DNA from: Rhodococcus phenolicus
GTDB lineage: Bacteria; Actinomycetota; Actinomycetes; Mycobacteriales; Mycobacteriaceae
Assembly (NCBI RefSeq): GCF_001646785.1
Contig: NZ_LRRH01000031.1
Coordinates: 62,001 to 126,000, forward strand
Length of the DNA stretch: 64,000 nucleotides
Direction: 5' to 3'
A program made the translations under genes and the position numbers. The stretch's first letter is position 1. The number at the start of each line of letters is the position of its first letter. Shown one piece after another: positions 24,552 to 27,973 of this stretch. Below the pieces are notes generated by a model that was not told the DNA's origin, made no database searches, and worked only from the letters and a program-made list of their open reading frames with translations.

Positions 24552-25847
24552 ATGACCCCCGTGCCTGGCACCGACGTCAACACCGCCGCGCTCGCCGATC
24601 TCGACCCGGAAGTCGCGCAGGCGATGGCCGGTGAGCTGTCCCGTCAGCGCGACACCCTCGAGATGATCGCGTCGGAGAACTTCGTGCCGCGCGCCGTGCT
24701 GCAGGCGCAGGGCAGCGTGCTGACCAACAAGTACGCCGAGGGCTACCCGGGTCGCCGCTACTACGGCGGCTGCGAGAACGTCGACGTCATCGAGGACCTG
24801 GCGCGCACCCGCGCCAAGGAACTGTTCGGCGCGGAATTCGCAAACGTGCAGCCGCACTCGGGCGCGCAGGCCAACGCCGCGGTGCTCATGGCGCTGATGA
24901 CCCCGGGCGAGAAGCTGCTCGGCCTCGATCTCGCGCACGGCGGTCACCTCACGCACGGCATGAAGCTGAACTTCTCCGGCAAGCTGTACGACGTCGCGTC
25001 CTACGGGGTCAGCAAGGAAGACCACCGCATCGACATGGACGAGGTCCGCGACATCGCGCTGCGGGAGAAGCCGAAGGTCATCGTCGCCGGCTGGTCGGCG
25101 TACCCGCGTCACGAGGATTTCGCCGCGTTCCGCTCGATCGCGGACGAGGTCGGCGCGTACCTCTGGGTCGACATGGCGCACTTCGCGGGCCTGGTCGCCG
25201 CGGGCCTGCACCCGTCGCCGGTGCCCTACGCCGACGTCGTGTCCACCACCGTGCACAAGACCCTCGGCGGACCCCGCTCGGGTCTGATCCTGGCCAAGCA
25301 GGAGTGGGCGAAGAAGCTGAACTCGGCGGTGTTCCCCGGCCAGCAGGGCGGACCGCTCATGCACGCGATCGCCGCGAAGGCCGTGGCCCTGAAGATCGCC
25401 GCCGGTGAGGAGTTCAAGGACCGCCAGCAGCGCACCCTGTCGGGTGCCCGGATCCTCGCCGAGCGTCTCTCGCAGGCGGACGTCGCGGACAAGGGCATCT
25501 CGGTGCTCACCGGCGGCACCGACGTGCACTTGGTGCTCGTGGACCTGCGCAACTCGCAGCTCGACGGACAGCAGGGCGAGGACGCGCTGCACGAGGTCGG
25601 CATCACCGTCAACCGCAACGCCGTGCCGTTCGATCCGCGCCCGCCGATGGTCACCTCCGGCCTGCGCATCGGTACTCCGGCGCTCGCGACCCGCGGTTTC
25701 GGGGACGAGCAGTTCACCGAGGTCGCGGAGATCATCGCGCAGACCCTCATCGGTGGCGGCGACGTCGACGCGCTGCGCGCCCGGGTGAGCAAGCTGGCCC
25801 AGGACGTCCCGCTGTACCAGGGCCTGGAGGACTGGCCCCTCATCTAG
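24552..25847 (+). CDS. glyA: Serine hydroxymethyltransferase
   Basis: A 431-residue PLP enzyme interconverting serine and glycine with tetrahydrofolate, the main source of one-carbon units. The PLP lysine is K236 in [14 protein letters not shown]. Other marks are [10 protein letters not shown] (37-46), [15 protein letters not shown] (64-78) and [10 protein letters not shown]. Full length. The ATG has GGAGAA about 8 bases upstream. TAGACT at 24506-24511 may be the -10 box. A terminator follows at 25876-25916. Confidence 0.96.
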
Positions 25848-25875
25848 TCGCCCGCGTGCGTTAACGCATTCTTCA

Positions 25876-25916
25876 CCGACACGCCCCACGCTCTGCGAGC
25901 GTCCGGGGCGTGTCGG
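25876..25916 (+). terminator. Terminator hairpin after glyA
   Basis: A 12-bp outer stem (CCGACACGCCCC and complement) encloses an inner ACGCTC/GAGCGT stem. It begins 28 bases after the glyA stop. Confidence 0.75.
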
Positions 25917-25929
25917 CGTTAGCGTGACG

Positions 25930-25957
25930 GTGTGGTCGGCACAGGTGCCGGCTACAC
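25930..25957 (+). promoter_or_regulatory. RNA hairpin abutting the ribosome-binding site of the small ORF before phoH2
   Basis: GTGTGGTCGGCAC (25930-25942) can pair with GTGCCGGCTACAC (25945-25957) through 13 pairs, two of them G-U. The 3' arm ends immediately before GGGAGG (25958-25963), the ribosome-binding site of the 41-residue ORF. Two further small hairpins lie at 25991-26014 and 26014-26030. A regulatory leader is possible but unproven. Confidence 0.35.
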
Positions 25958-25971
25958 GGGAGGTCCTGGTC

Positions 25972-26097
25972 GTGGCTGAGGAATTCAGTGCGAGGGGCCG
26001 GCACCCGGCCCTCGTGTCCTGCACGGACACCCGGGACGACCGGCCCACCGAGAAAGACTCCTGCGTGGTGCCGCGCAGGACTAGGAGCCTCACGTGA
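25972..26097 (+). CDS. 41-residue ORF coupled to phoH2 (PhoAT-like candidate)
   Basis: GTG at 25972 lies 8 bases after a strong GGGAGG. The frame encodes 41 residues beginning [17 protein letters not shown], rich in charged residues, with two cysteines. It stops at 26095-26097, overlapping the phoH2 GTG start by GTGA. In mycobacteria phoH2 is reported to be preceded by a small gene, phoAT, forming a toxin-antitoxin-like pair. Position, coupling and ribosome-binding site support a counterpart here. I cannot align it to PhoAT from memory. In-frame GTG codons at 25924 and 25930 could extend it to about 57 residues. Confidence 0.55.
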
Positions 26098-27458
26098 CCG
26101 CAACACGCTCCGTCCCCGCTCGCACCGGACGTCGCTCCACGAAGTCCGCGGCGCAGCAGTCCGCCCTCCGCACGTACGTTCTGGACACCTCGGTGTTGCT
26201 CTCCGATCCGTGGGCGGTGACCCGCTTCGCGGAACACCGGGTGGTGCTGCCGCTCGTGGTGATCGGCGAACTCGAAGGCAAGCGGCATCATCACGAACTC
26301 GGCTGGTTCGCGCGCGAAGCCCTTCGTCTGCTCGACGACCTGCGGCTGCAGCACGGTCGTCTCGACCGGCCGATCCCCATCGGTGACGCCGGGGGCACCC
26401 TGCACGTGGAGTTGAACCACACCGATCCGTCGGTGCTGCCCGACGGGTTCCGCACCGGCGACAACGATTCGCGGATCCTGGCGTGCGCGCTCAATCTCGC
26501 GGCCGACGGGCAGGACGTGGTGCTGGTCAGCAAGGACATTCCGCTGCGGGTCAAGGCGGGTGCCGCGGGTCTGCCCGCCGACGAGTACCACGCCCAGGAC
26601 GTGGTGATCTCCGGCTGGACGGGCATGACCGAGCTCGACGTCGACCGCTCCGTGATCGACGATCTGTTCTCGGAGGGCGTCGTCGATCTGGACGAGGCGC
26701 GGGATCTTCCGTGCCACACCGGCATTCGACTGCTCGGTGGGGCGTCCAGCGCGCTGGGGCGGGTCACCCCGGACAAGCGGGTGCAACTGGTGCGCGGCGA
26801 CCGGGAGGCGTTCGGACTGCACGGCCGCTCCGCGGAGCAGCGGGTCGCACTGGACCTGCTGCTCGACGATTCGGTCGGCATCGTCTCGCTCGGGGGCAAG
26901 GCGGGCACGGGCAAGTCGGCGCTCGCGCTGACCGCCGGTCTGGAAGCGGTGCTCGAGCGTCGCACCCAGCGCAAGGTCGTGGTGTTCCGCCCGCTGTATG
27001 CGGTCGGCGGTCAGGAACTCGGCTACCTGCCGGGCAGCGAGAGCGAGAAGATGGGGCCGTGGGCACAGGCGGTGTTCGACACCCTCGACGGCCTCGCCAG
27101 TCCCGCGGTGATGGACGAGGTGATCAGCCGCGGCATGCTGGAAGTGCTGCCGCTCACGCATATTCGCGGCAGATCGCTGCACGACTCGTTCGTGATCGTC
27201 GACGAGGCGCAGTCCCTCGAACGCAACGTGCTGCTCACCGTGCTCTCGCGGCTGGGATCCGGTTCGCGGGTGGTGCTCACCCATGATGTCGCGCAGCGTG
27301 ACAACCTGCGGGTGGGCCGTCACGACGGTGTCGCCGCGGTCATCGAGAAGCTCAAGGGACACCCGCTGTTCGCGCACGTGACCCTCACCCGCAGCGAGCG
27401 GTCGCCGATCGCCGCGCTCGTCACCGAGATGCTCGAGGAATTCGCCCCCGGCGCCTGA
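26094..27458 (+). CDS. phoH2: PhoH2: PIN-domain RNase fused to PhoH ATPase
   Basis: A 454-residue fusion. Residues 25-165 are a PIN nuclease domain ([15 protein letters not shown] with Asp31; acidic residues in [14 protein letters not shown] and [12 protein letters not shown]). Residues 245-454 are a PhoH ATPase, with Walker [10 protein letters not shown] at 267-275, Walker B in [14 protein letters not shown], and a THD sensor in [14 protein letters not shown]. Mycobacterial PhoH2 has been described as a sequence-biased RNA helicase and RNase. The GTG start has AGGAG upstream and overlaps the stop of a 41-residue ORF. A 23-bp hairpin ends the unit. Confidence 0.93.
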
Positions 27459-27465
27459 ACCGGTT

Positions 27466-27516
27466 GGGTGATGGGACCATTCGTCCGGGCTGACCGGACG
27501 AATGGTCCCATCACCC
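27466..27516. terminator. Perfect 23-bp bidirectional terminator hairpin
   Basis: GGGTGATGGGACCATTCGTC followed by CGG pairs exactly with 27494-27516 across a 5-base loop. It sits between the phoH2 stop and the stop of the convergent decarboxylase-like gene. Confidence 0.85.
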
Positions 27517-27526
27517 TGCGGGTGGT

Positions 27527-27925
27527 TCAGGCCGGGCCGAGTTCGGCCTCCAGGACCTCCTGGGTGACGCGCATCGCCGCGAGCGCGGCGGGGGAGCCGC
27601 AGTAGGCGGCCGAATGGATGACCGCTTCGGTGATCTCGGTGCGCGTCAGACCGTTCCGGAGAGCCCCGCGGATGTGGCCGCGCAGCTCGTTCTCGGCGCG
27701 GAGGGCGATGAGCATGCCGATGTTGAGCAGGCTGCGGCTGCGGCGGTCGAGCCCGGGACGGGACCACACCGCGCCCCACGCGTGCTCGGTCACGAACTCC
27801 TGCAAGGCTTCCGAGTCGGTGCCTCGGGCCCGGTCGAAGGCACGCTCGACGAAGTCGTCGCCCATCACCTCCCGGCGGATCTCGAGTCCGGCCTCGAAAC
27901 CGGGGGTGTGCTCGGCGTCGCTCAT
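27527..27925 (-). CDS. Carboxymuconolactone decarboxylase family protein (PcaC-like)
   Basis: A 132-residue helical protein of the CMD family. It shows the PcaC-type blocks EHAWGAVWSRPGLDRRSRSL, GHIRGALRNGLTRTEITE and HSAAYCGSPAAL. PcaC decarboxylates gamma-carboxymuconolactone in the protocatechuate branch of the beta-ketoadipate pathway. No other pca gene is nearby, so a stand-alone CMD enzyme for another substrate is also possible. No AhpD-type CxxC is present. The ATG at 27925 has AGGAG 7 bases upstream. Confidence 0.82.
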   Translation of the reverse strand: MSDAEHTPGFEAGLEIRREVMGDDFVERAFDRARGTDSEALQEFVTEHAWGAVWSRPGLDRRSRSLLNIGMLIALRAENELRGHIRGALRNGLTRTEITEAVIHSAAYCGSPAALAAMRVTQEVLEAELGPA

Positions 27926-27973
27926 CGTGCTGCTCCTGTTCACGCCGCCGAACGGTTCGGCGGCGTGAGAATT

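Follow-up and report, generated by a model that had tools for sequence, protein, structure and literature searches.

A small open reading frame upstream of phoH2 in Rhodococcus phenolicus as a probable part of a conserved, folded phoH2 leader

We analysed a 64,000-nucleotide stretch of Rhodococcus phenolicus DNA (hereafter the window), in which a 41-codon open reading frame (ORF) runs into the start of phoH2. Based on comparison with phoH2 upstream regions of related genomes, this ORF is probably the form that a short upstream ORF (uORF) takes in this Rhodococcus lineage inside a conserved, folded phoH2 leader, rather than an antitoxin gene similar to mycobacterial phoAT, as the initial annotation had suggested. 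Our best reading of the whole is a uORF-bearing cis-regulatory leader of phoH2, for which we infer both translation of the uORF and regulation of the gene.

The phoH2 locus and its leader RNA

The gene at 26094-27458 is phoH2, as its product carries the Pfam domains PIN_4 and PhoH and matches the NCBIfam entry "RNA 5'-3' helicase PhoH2" with 799 bits (cut-off 680). Upstream of it, the GGGAGG Shine-Dalgarno (SD) sequence, the proper spacing (8 nt from SD to GTG), the GTG start and the four-base overlap with phoH2 that had been claimed for the small ORF are all present, the overlap being a GTGA that joins the phoH2 GTG (26094-26096) to the TGA of the ORF. The 41-aa product gave no match when searched against Pfam and NCBIfam up to an E-value of 1. 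ORFs of this size are common, with 48 of at least 30 aa in the ORF list overlapping 6 kb of the window, so the case for the 41-codon ORF rests on comparison; mechanically, its frame is open already from a GTG further upstream (25924, giving 57 aa). What stands above chance is the retention of the SD and start codon in relatives together with the RNA structure, while a mere open frame is not unusual.

For this comparison, phoH2 upstream regions were taken from 61 related genomes (30 loci), from 80 named genome contigs (the best 80 of more), from 61 genomes of the order (29 new loci) and from 40 genomes of genus g50 (38 with phoH2, 27 new loci). Genus g50 appears to be Mycobacterium and genus g1 Rhodococcus, judging from matching leaders or contigs: the leader of g50 locus L177 reads the same as that of L122 ([Mycobacterium] manitobense), and L007/L066 and L009/L067 match likewise. 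Among the 166 loci with a phoH2 upstream region, 165 were parsed (the PIN motif of L174 was not readable) and 134 non-redundant ones were kept. The uORF counts use 105 of these 134, the other 29 being g50 loci that were analysed separately (as 31 loci, not deduplicated). Alignment A2 consists of 52 of the 134 leaders, which we chose for having CGGGAGGT and an alignable length, and covariance model R1 was built on these 52; leaders of Gordonia, Williamsia, Tsukamurella, g50 and other families were left out of A2 and partly used as test loci. A DNA pattern (GGGAGGT...GTG...CGAGGG) was too unspecific, occurring in 233 of 251 genomes with many chance places, and was not used for counts. Two leaders are out of keeping with their labels: that of L081 (Kitasatospora arboriphila), which is likely mislabelled or contaminated, reads the same as that of Williamsia muralis L083 over the part displayed, and that of L089 (R. 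ruber) resembles that of Rhodococcoides fascians L095.

The features of the locus are as follows.

25920..25925, + strand: -10-like box TAGCGT (a TAnnnT box stands in 52/52 aligned leaders)
25927..26089, + strand: conserved structured 5' leader RNA of phoH2 (covariance model R1, covariation, fold z)
25931..25956, + strand: hairpin A, 10 bp, at the leader 5' end (covariation)
25958-25963, + strand: uORF SD GGGAGG (columns invariant in A2, whose rows were picked for having CGGGAGGT)
25971..25992, + strand: hairpin B around the start codon, weakly supported (pairing in alignment)
25972..26097, + strand: 41-codon uORF (GTG 25972-25974, stop TGA 26095-26097)
25994..25997, + strand: run of four G (one base more in 45/52 A2 rows, column 76)
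25994..26012, + strand: hairpin C, over the RGPAPGP codons of relatives (pairing in alignment)
26014..26030, + strand: hairpin D, GTGTCC-loop-GGACAC (sequences and fold)
26038..26051, + strand: conserved GACCGGCCCACCGA element (alignment and MFE)
26059..26080, + strand: hairpin E, adjoining the phoH2 ribosome site (covariation)
26083..26087, + strand: phoH2 SD AGGAG (sequence and alignment A2)
26094..27458, + strand: phoH2, PIN RNase and PhoH helicase, 454 aa (Pfam and NCBIfam)

The window leader scores 140 bits against R1 (E 6.4e-22), the window sequence itself being part of the model, and folds alone with a z of -3.31 (-3.93 with flanks). Its parts follow one order in A2, namely hairpin A, CGGGAGGT, B, C, a variable part, GACCGG(C/T)CC, E and the phoH2 SD. 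RNAalifold run on the 52 aligned leaders returned 36 pairs, 21 of them with compensatory change. For a 41-pair structure over the same leaders, 94.4% of cells are paired and two-sided changes occur in 22 pairs (199 cells); none of 500 shuffles reached this structure on any of five measures, and slid versions of it were only 37-43% paired. Placed on the phoH2 tree, it shows 53 two-sided pair-keeping changes (29 in E, 19 in A, 2 in C, 2 in P1 and 1 in B), whereas 200 random re-pairings averaged 4.9 and never exceeded 18; the total of 51 breaks is not below that of the re-pairings (mean 52.4).

In this leader helices A and E covary and helix C is well paired. It is in A and E that the covarying secondary structure looked for in a cis-acting structured leader is present: two-sided changes are found in 9 of the 10 pairs of hairpin A and in 8 of the 10 pairs of hairpin E. 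Hairpin C is paired in 100% of cells, with mostly one-sided changes and no breaks on the tree. Helices B and P1 are weak, with few two-sided changes and 13-15 breaks; hairpin B pairs in 90.1% of cells, yet the tree gives it one two-sided change and 13 breaks. Hairpin D differs between species (L006-L008 keep the stem and vary in the loop). In an alternative MFE fold, the CCGGCCC of the GACCGGCCCACCGA element could take the 5' strand of hairpin C as its partner; this alternative helix is 96.2% paired, with covariation not above that of shuffles. A kissing interaction between the loops of C and E was considered by eye as a further candidate contact.

Searches against Rfam gave no match inside the leader, either for the window up to an E-value of 5 or for eight relatives at gathering scores, and a known riboswitch or Rfam family was set aside as a reading. 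Outside the leader and near phoH2, the Rfam ASdes sRNA family matches in 7 of the 8 relatives scanned (L116:6639-6706, L095:6821-6888, L148:812-879, L176:797-863, L021:260-327, L101:2084-2151 and L123:2202-2269). A terminator within the leader was likewise discarded, as the coding (+) strand of 25800-26150 has no terminator-like site and the opposite strand has one.

The flanks of the leader hold further elements. All 52 aligned leaders carry a TAnnnT box at 26-52 nt on the 5' side of the SD (TAGCGT in 31, TACCGT in 11), and the TAGCGT at 25920..25925 is a putative promoter element; a sigma-70 consensus scan of the leader region gave no promoter match. Between this box and the end (25847) of the upstream ORF, which we take by eye to resemble glyA, lies an inverted repeat (25876-25916, CCGACACGCCCC...GGGGCGTGTCGG) that is similar in L007, L008, L018 and L019 and may be read as a terminator or an operator. 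Right after phoH2 and ahead of a convergent ORF (27527-27943, - strand), a long near-perfect inverted repeat at 27466-27516, for which Rfam gave chance-level matches only, is probably a two-way terminator.

Across the genomes searched, the leader is tied to phoH2. R1 has a single match in the window genome at E<=1 and, with strict filters and E<=0.001, matches 11 of 61 genomes of the order; all 11 places lie directly upstream of phoH2 by coordinates, and 8 of them belong to families (f4, f7 and f14) absent from model training. The other 50 genomes, four of which belong to the PhoAT-type genus, all have phoH2 and gave no R1 match at E<=0.001. A set of 119 genomes of the phylum yielded two matches, both within the family. 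Among 54 loci outside the training set, R1 matches 32 at E<=0.01, every one of them placed at the leader by its coordinates; at the same cut-off it matches 7 of the 19 g50 loci given to it. Three loci (L103, L179 and L188) have phoH2 with most of the leader missing and no R1 match, so the leader is not indispensable.

The uORF frame in relatives and its shift in the window lineage

In 67 of the 105 upstream regions, drawn from several families of the order, the first start codon downstream of the SD opens a frame that contains GP(A/V)P codons, and this holds over ten classes of start-to-GPxP spacing (6, 15, 18, 21, 24, 36, 39, 45, 48 and 54 nt). The count takes the nearest SD, and its 38 regions not in phase include 13 without an SD/helix C pair found by pattern, one more without a start, and L011, L014 and L016-L019, which have their second GTG in phase. 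Six loci of families f2, f5, f7 and f8, found by a pattern for the helix C sequence, have this sequence and read it in other frames. In some loci the uORF start codon has changed from GTG to ATG or TTG. The ORF ends before phoH2 in 65 of the 105 regions (39 of them at exactly 17 codons), overlaps it in 14 and stays open past its start in 13, with 11 regions lacking an SD or start and 2 classed as other. Where the frame is kept, the peptide mostly terminates ahead of helix E and phoH2. The commonest product in relatives has 17 codons (M..RGPAPGPR..*) and ends before phoH2; typical examples are MTELLSTRGPAPGPRGG (Nocardia), MTELVSARGPVPGPRVT (Rhodococcoides fascians), MVCTSNARGPAPVLVHLG (Gordonia), MTRLIVARGPAPVLVVGA (Tsukamurella) and MAVTQRTAKPFKHTRGPAPGPRGRVT (L159, family f14).

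Judging from codon changes, this peptide is constrained over RGPAPGP only. Pairwise codon differences over RGPAPGP in Nocardia comprise 48 synonymous and 7 non-synonymous ones, compared with 0/42 and 6/42 in the other frames, which corresponds to a synonymous share of 0.87 (8 distinct sequences) vs. 0.00 and 0.12 in the other frames and a neutral value of 0.32. Constraint is absent from codons 2-7 in Nocardia (share 0.13 vs. a neutral 0.24) and slight over codons 2-17 taken together (0.32 vs. a neutral 0.28). Rhodococcus-type leaders, counted with the out-of-phase rows L066 and L067 excluded, behave similarly over RGPAPGP, with 57/22 synonymous to non-synonymous differences vs. 0/71 and 19/64 in the other frames (share 0.72 for 9 distinct sequences vs. 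0.00 and 0.23).

The window lineage departs from this pattern through a G run that is one base shorter, by which the uORF frame is shifted, the early stop is lost and the ORF ends on the phoH2 start. The window product opens with MAEEFSARG like its relatives; the DNA then has four G where the run is longer in those relatives, and the product continues as RHPALVS... without the early stop, the distance from start to GPxP codon being 23 nt in the window vs. 24 nt in 51 regions. Two other loci (L023 and L025) also have four G, with another length upstream, and keep GPAPGPR. Altogether, the GPxP phase is absent from the window lineage (5/5), from L020, from R. spelaei and from five Williamsia loci, which, like the six distant-family loci above, speaks against a general role of the peptide. 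A short ORF of the kind looked for in a leader-peptide attenuator is seen in the 67 in-phase regions, with constraint on RGPAPGP only, and is absent in the window lineage.

The 41-codon frame and the PhoAT position

The 41-codon frame itself gives a different picture. When the window is compared with its nearest relatives L007 and L008, the ORF has 0 synonymous and 6 non-synonymous codon changes and 0 and 5, respectively, and L007 vs. L008 has 2 and 4, whereas the 400 codons of phoH2 give 95/13, 80/12 and 82/12 in the same three pairs. These codon numbers are small and, as sequence comparisons go, compatible with neutrality or weak constraint of the ORF, yet unlike phoH2. Among L011-L018 the synonymous share of the 41-codon frame is 0.28 vs. 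0.30 under neutrality (6 distinct sequences). From L006 to L008, the base of hairpin E changes from T...A to A...T, which preserves the pair while replacing two amino acids. Purifying selection on the 41-aa protein sequence was accordingly not found.

A stop that overlaps the next start, as in translational coupling, is present in the window and recurs. Within the genus, 13 of the 17 genomes with a leader locus keep an ORF of 40-41 codons and the four-base overlap; an eighteenth (G005) has a fragmentary phoH2 and no locus counted. Stops or frameshifts in close relatives had been named beforehand as grounds for giving up the ORF, and this result was obtained in part: in L009 (R. ruber by its contig) and L010 the ORF stops 12 nt short of phoH2, an indel that sets L019 apart from the close L018 changes the frame so that the L019 ORF runs on into phoH2, and in L020 the ORF lies in another frame. 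GTGA coupling in the window and in the 13 genus members is plausible from the sequences. In L011-L018, the first GTG is followed two bases on by another, from which the RGPAP frame is read in frame into phoH2, and an N-terminally extended PhoH2 is possible there.

The g50 ORF begins, in the 31 loci, with an ATG at a distance of 13-15 nt from where the -10-like box starts, and its product reads MASDMLC(C/Y).GGT... in many; this ORF ends in a GTGA overlap with phoH2 in 15 of the 31. Helix C, present in 28 of these loci, is read in phase 1 in 20, in phase 0 in 3 and in phase 2 in 5; ORF lengths extend from 13 codons to open, and synonymous vs. non-synonymous changes over 62 pairs are, as raw counts, 44/79 in codons 2-12 and 88/193 in codons 13-25. 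Passages of two papers describe PhoAT as a gene that "overlaps" phoH2 (PMC12038028) and as a "short, upstream gene" (PMC7390352), and from these passages the position of the g50 ORF appears to be the PhoAT position, in this same leader. For mycobacteria, Andrews and Arcus (2015; cited in PMC4826407 and PMC7390352) reportedly found that PhoAT binds PhoH2 and lifts growth inhibition, the PhoAT-PhoH2 pair is counted in one such passage among toxin-antitoxin systems (PMC8165232), and PhoH2 is described as unwinding and cutting RNA (PMC7390352).

Alternative readings and comparison with known systems

Were the 41-aa product a PhoAT-like type II antitoxin, restraining PhoH2 by binding and co-made with it via translational coupling, this would suit the strong SD, the GTGA overlap kept in 13/17 genus members and 15/31 g50 loci, the same helix C phase in 20/28 g50 loci and the binding and relief of growth inhibition ascribed to mycobacterial PhoAT (PMC4826407, PMC7390352). 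A small overlapping ORF upstream is indeed there, but similarity to a known family was not found in Pfam or NCBIfam, and the codon changes in the three close pairs (0/6, 0/5 and 2/4) are far from those of phoH2, while the share in L011-L018 is near neutral. Frame, length and stop vary within the genus, the commonest product of relatives has 17 aa, three loci keep phoH2 without most of the leader, and the g50 ORFs show all three phases, widely differing lengths and more non-synonymous than synonymous changes. We rejected the antitoxin as best reading on the codon changes and the unstable frame, length and stop, and consider it very improbable. Of the PhoAT-like pair put forward for this genus, the arrangement holds up (13/17), while an antitoxin protein does not, its sequence, frame and stop not being conserved. 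The 13/17 retention of the overlap is, however, also predicted by an antitoxin or a coupling model, and this is a point against our best reading.

That the leader acts as RNA alone (by way of its stability, of pausing, or of a ligand or protein that binds it), with the window ORF open by chance and not functionally translated, is a reading we find unlikely: it agrees with the covariation in the leader, with the neutral-like codon changes of the 41-codon ORF and with the helix C sequence read in other frames in six distant-family loci, but it does not account for an SD and start that are kept even where GTG has become ATG or TTG, for a GPxP frame kept over ten spacing classes, or for the mostly synonymous variation of RGPAPGP in relatives. 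PhoH2 could also feed back on the leader, its helicase and RNase opening or cutting its own 5'UTR, much as RNase E acts on the rne 5'UTR. The leader matches at phoH2 only in the genomes searched, and double-stranded helices adjoin the phoH2 ribosome site. PhoH2 is reported, moreover, to unwind and cut RNA (PMC7390352). Its target 5'-AC[AU][AU][GC] is nevertheless not enriched in the leaders (31 in 52 leaders vs. a shuffle mean of 30.9), and feedback leaves the conserved peptide frame unexplained; we hold it to be quite improbable.

Under the reading we prefer, a uORF-bearing cis-regulatory leader, a ribosome would load at 25958-25974 and translate across helices B and C, and its passage or pause would set the partner of the helix C 5' strand, either its own 3' strand or the downstream CCGGCCC. 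This choice would determine whether transcription and translation continue into phoH2 (leader-peptide attenuation). In the window lineage, by contrast, translation of the longer uORF would unfold the entire leader and pass ribosomes to phoH2 via the four-base coupling. As for a ribosome-controlled terminator or alternative fold, the + strand has no terminator, and the alternative helix is possible, without covariation beyond that of shuffles. Further results that weigh against the preferred reading are the weakness of helices B and P1 and a total of breaks no lower than in random re-pairings, the restriction of peptide constraint to RGPAPGP, the lost GPxP phase of the window lineage and of the other out-of-phase loci, the 50 order genomes in which R1 found nothing at E<=0.001, and the PhoH2 binding reported for PhoAT (PMC4826407, PMC7390352). 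In M. tuberculosis, the phoH2 5'UTR of 210 nt is listed with UTR/CDS read ratios of 4.7 in exponential and 11.9 in stationary phase (PMC3207917, Table 8), and the authors take high ratios there as pointing to additional riboswitch candidates among the entries of the table. This read excess fits premature ending; a passage of another study puts most short M. tuberculosis transcripts down to paused polymerase (PMC10937400). A more far-reaching version, which we advance only tentatively, is that phoH2 in this order is under the control of a previously undescribed leader RNA, in which ribosome pausing over helix C, brought about by the (R)GP(A/V)P peptide, fixes how much of the RNase-helicase is made, that PhoAT is the uORF of this leader and acts in cis via the RNA, and that the window lineage made its uORF a coupled one by a one-base change. 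If the small ORF belongs to a regulatory leader, the PhoAT antitoxin label needs re-examination. The evolution of uORF control can be tested on this leader RNA, which goes with a single RNase-helicase gene in several families and whose peptide frame survived indels before shifting in one lineage.

Our searches found no literature on phoH2 in Rhodococcus, a mycobacterial phoH2 uORF, Rv1095 ribosome profiling or actinobacterial phoH cis-regulatory RNA, and the passages available from the non-subscription phoH2, phoAT and Rv1095 literature contained no description of a leader structure or RGPAP peptide. With mycobacterial PhoAT-PhoH2, as described in such passages, the window shares a short ORF that immediately precedes phoH2, overlaps it and lies with it in one leader; the g50 ORF (mostly MASDMLC..GGT...) starts near the 5' end of a leader that R1 finds in 7/19 g50 loci. 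The two differ in that the g50 start is an ATG close to the -10-like box, whereas here the start is an SD-led GTG, and no peptide sequence was seen in common between the g50 ORF at the PhoAT position and the 41-aa product, the latter being without protein constraint.

Arrest peptides of the RAPP/RGPP/RAGP type (SecM, ApdA and ApdP; passages of PMC12992588 and PMC10951233) likewise combine a short upstream ORF with an Arg-Gly-Pro motif, as many relatives do here. The relatives, however, have RGPAP or RGPVP and not RGPP, in about 17 aa, and in the window the motif is out of frame (ARGRHP); "RGPAP" and "RAPAP" have no occurrence in the main text of PMC12992588. A RAPP-type arrest motif was set aside because the core RAPP/RGPP/RAGP is not present, leaving only a resemblance that is retained as a lead. 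Actinobacterial leader uORFs known for the M-box (PMC12810186), B12 (PMC11260477) and ilvB-II (PMC10272879) share, in the parts of these papers concerned, a conserved small ORF, a structured 5' leader and, as proposed here, control of the downstream gene; they differ in genes and structures, the phoH2 leader having no known ligand or amino-acid run. A further comparison is with the M. tuberculosis phoH2 5'UTR, whose reads exceed those of the coding part; section 12 part 1 of PMC3207917 gives no structure, uORF or conservation analysis of it, and if the leader described here acts as we propose, that read excess could gain a structural explanation.
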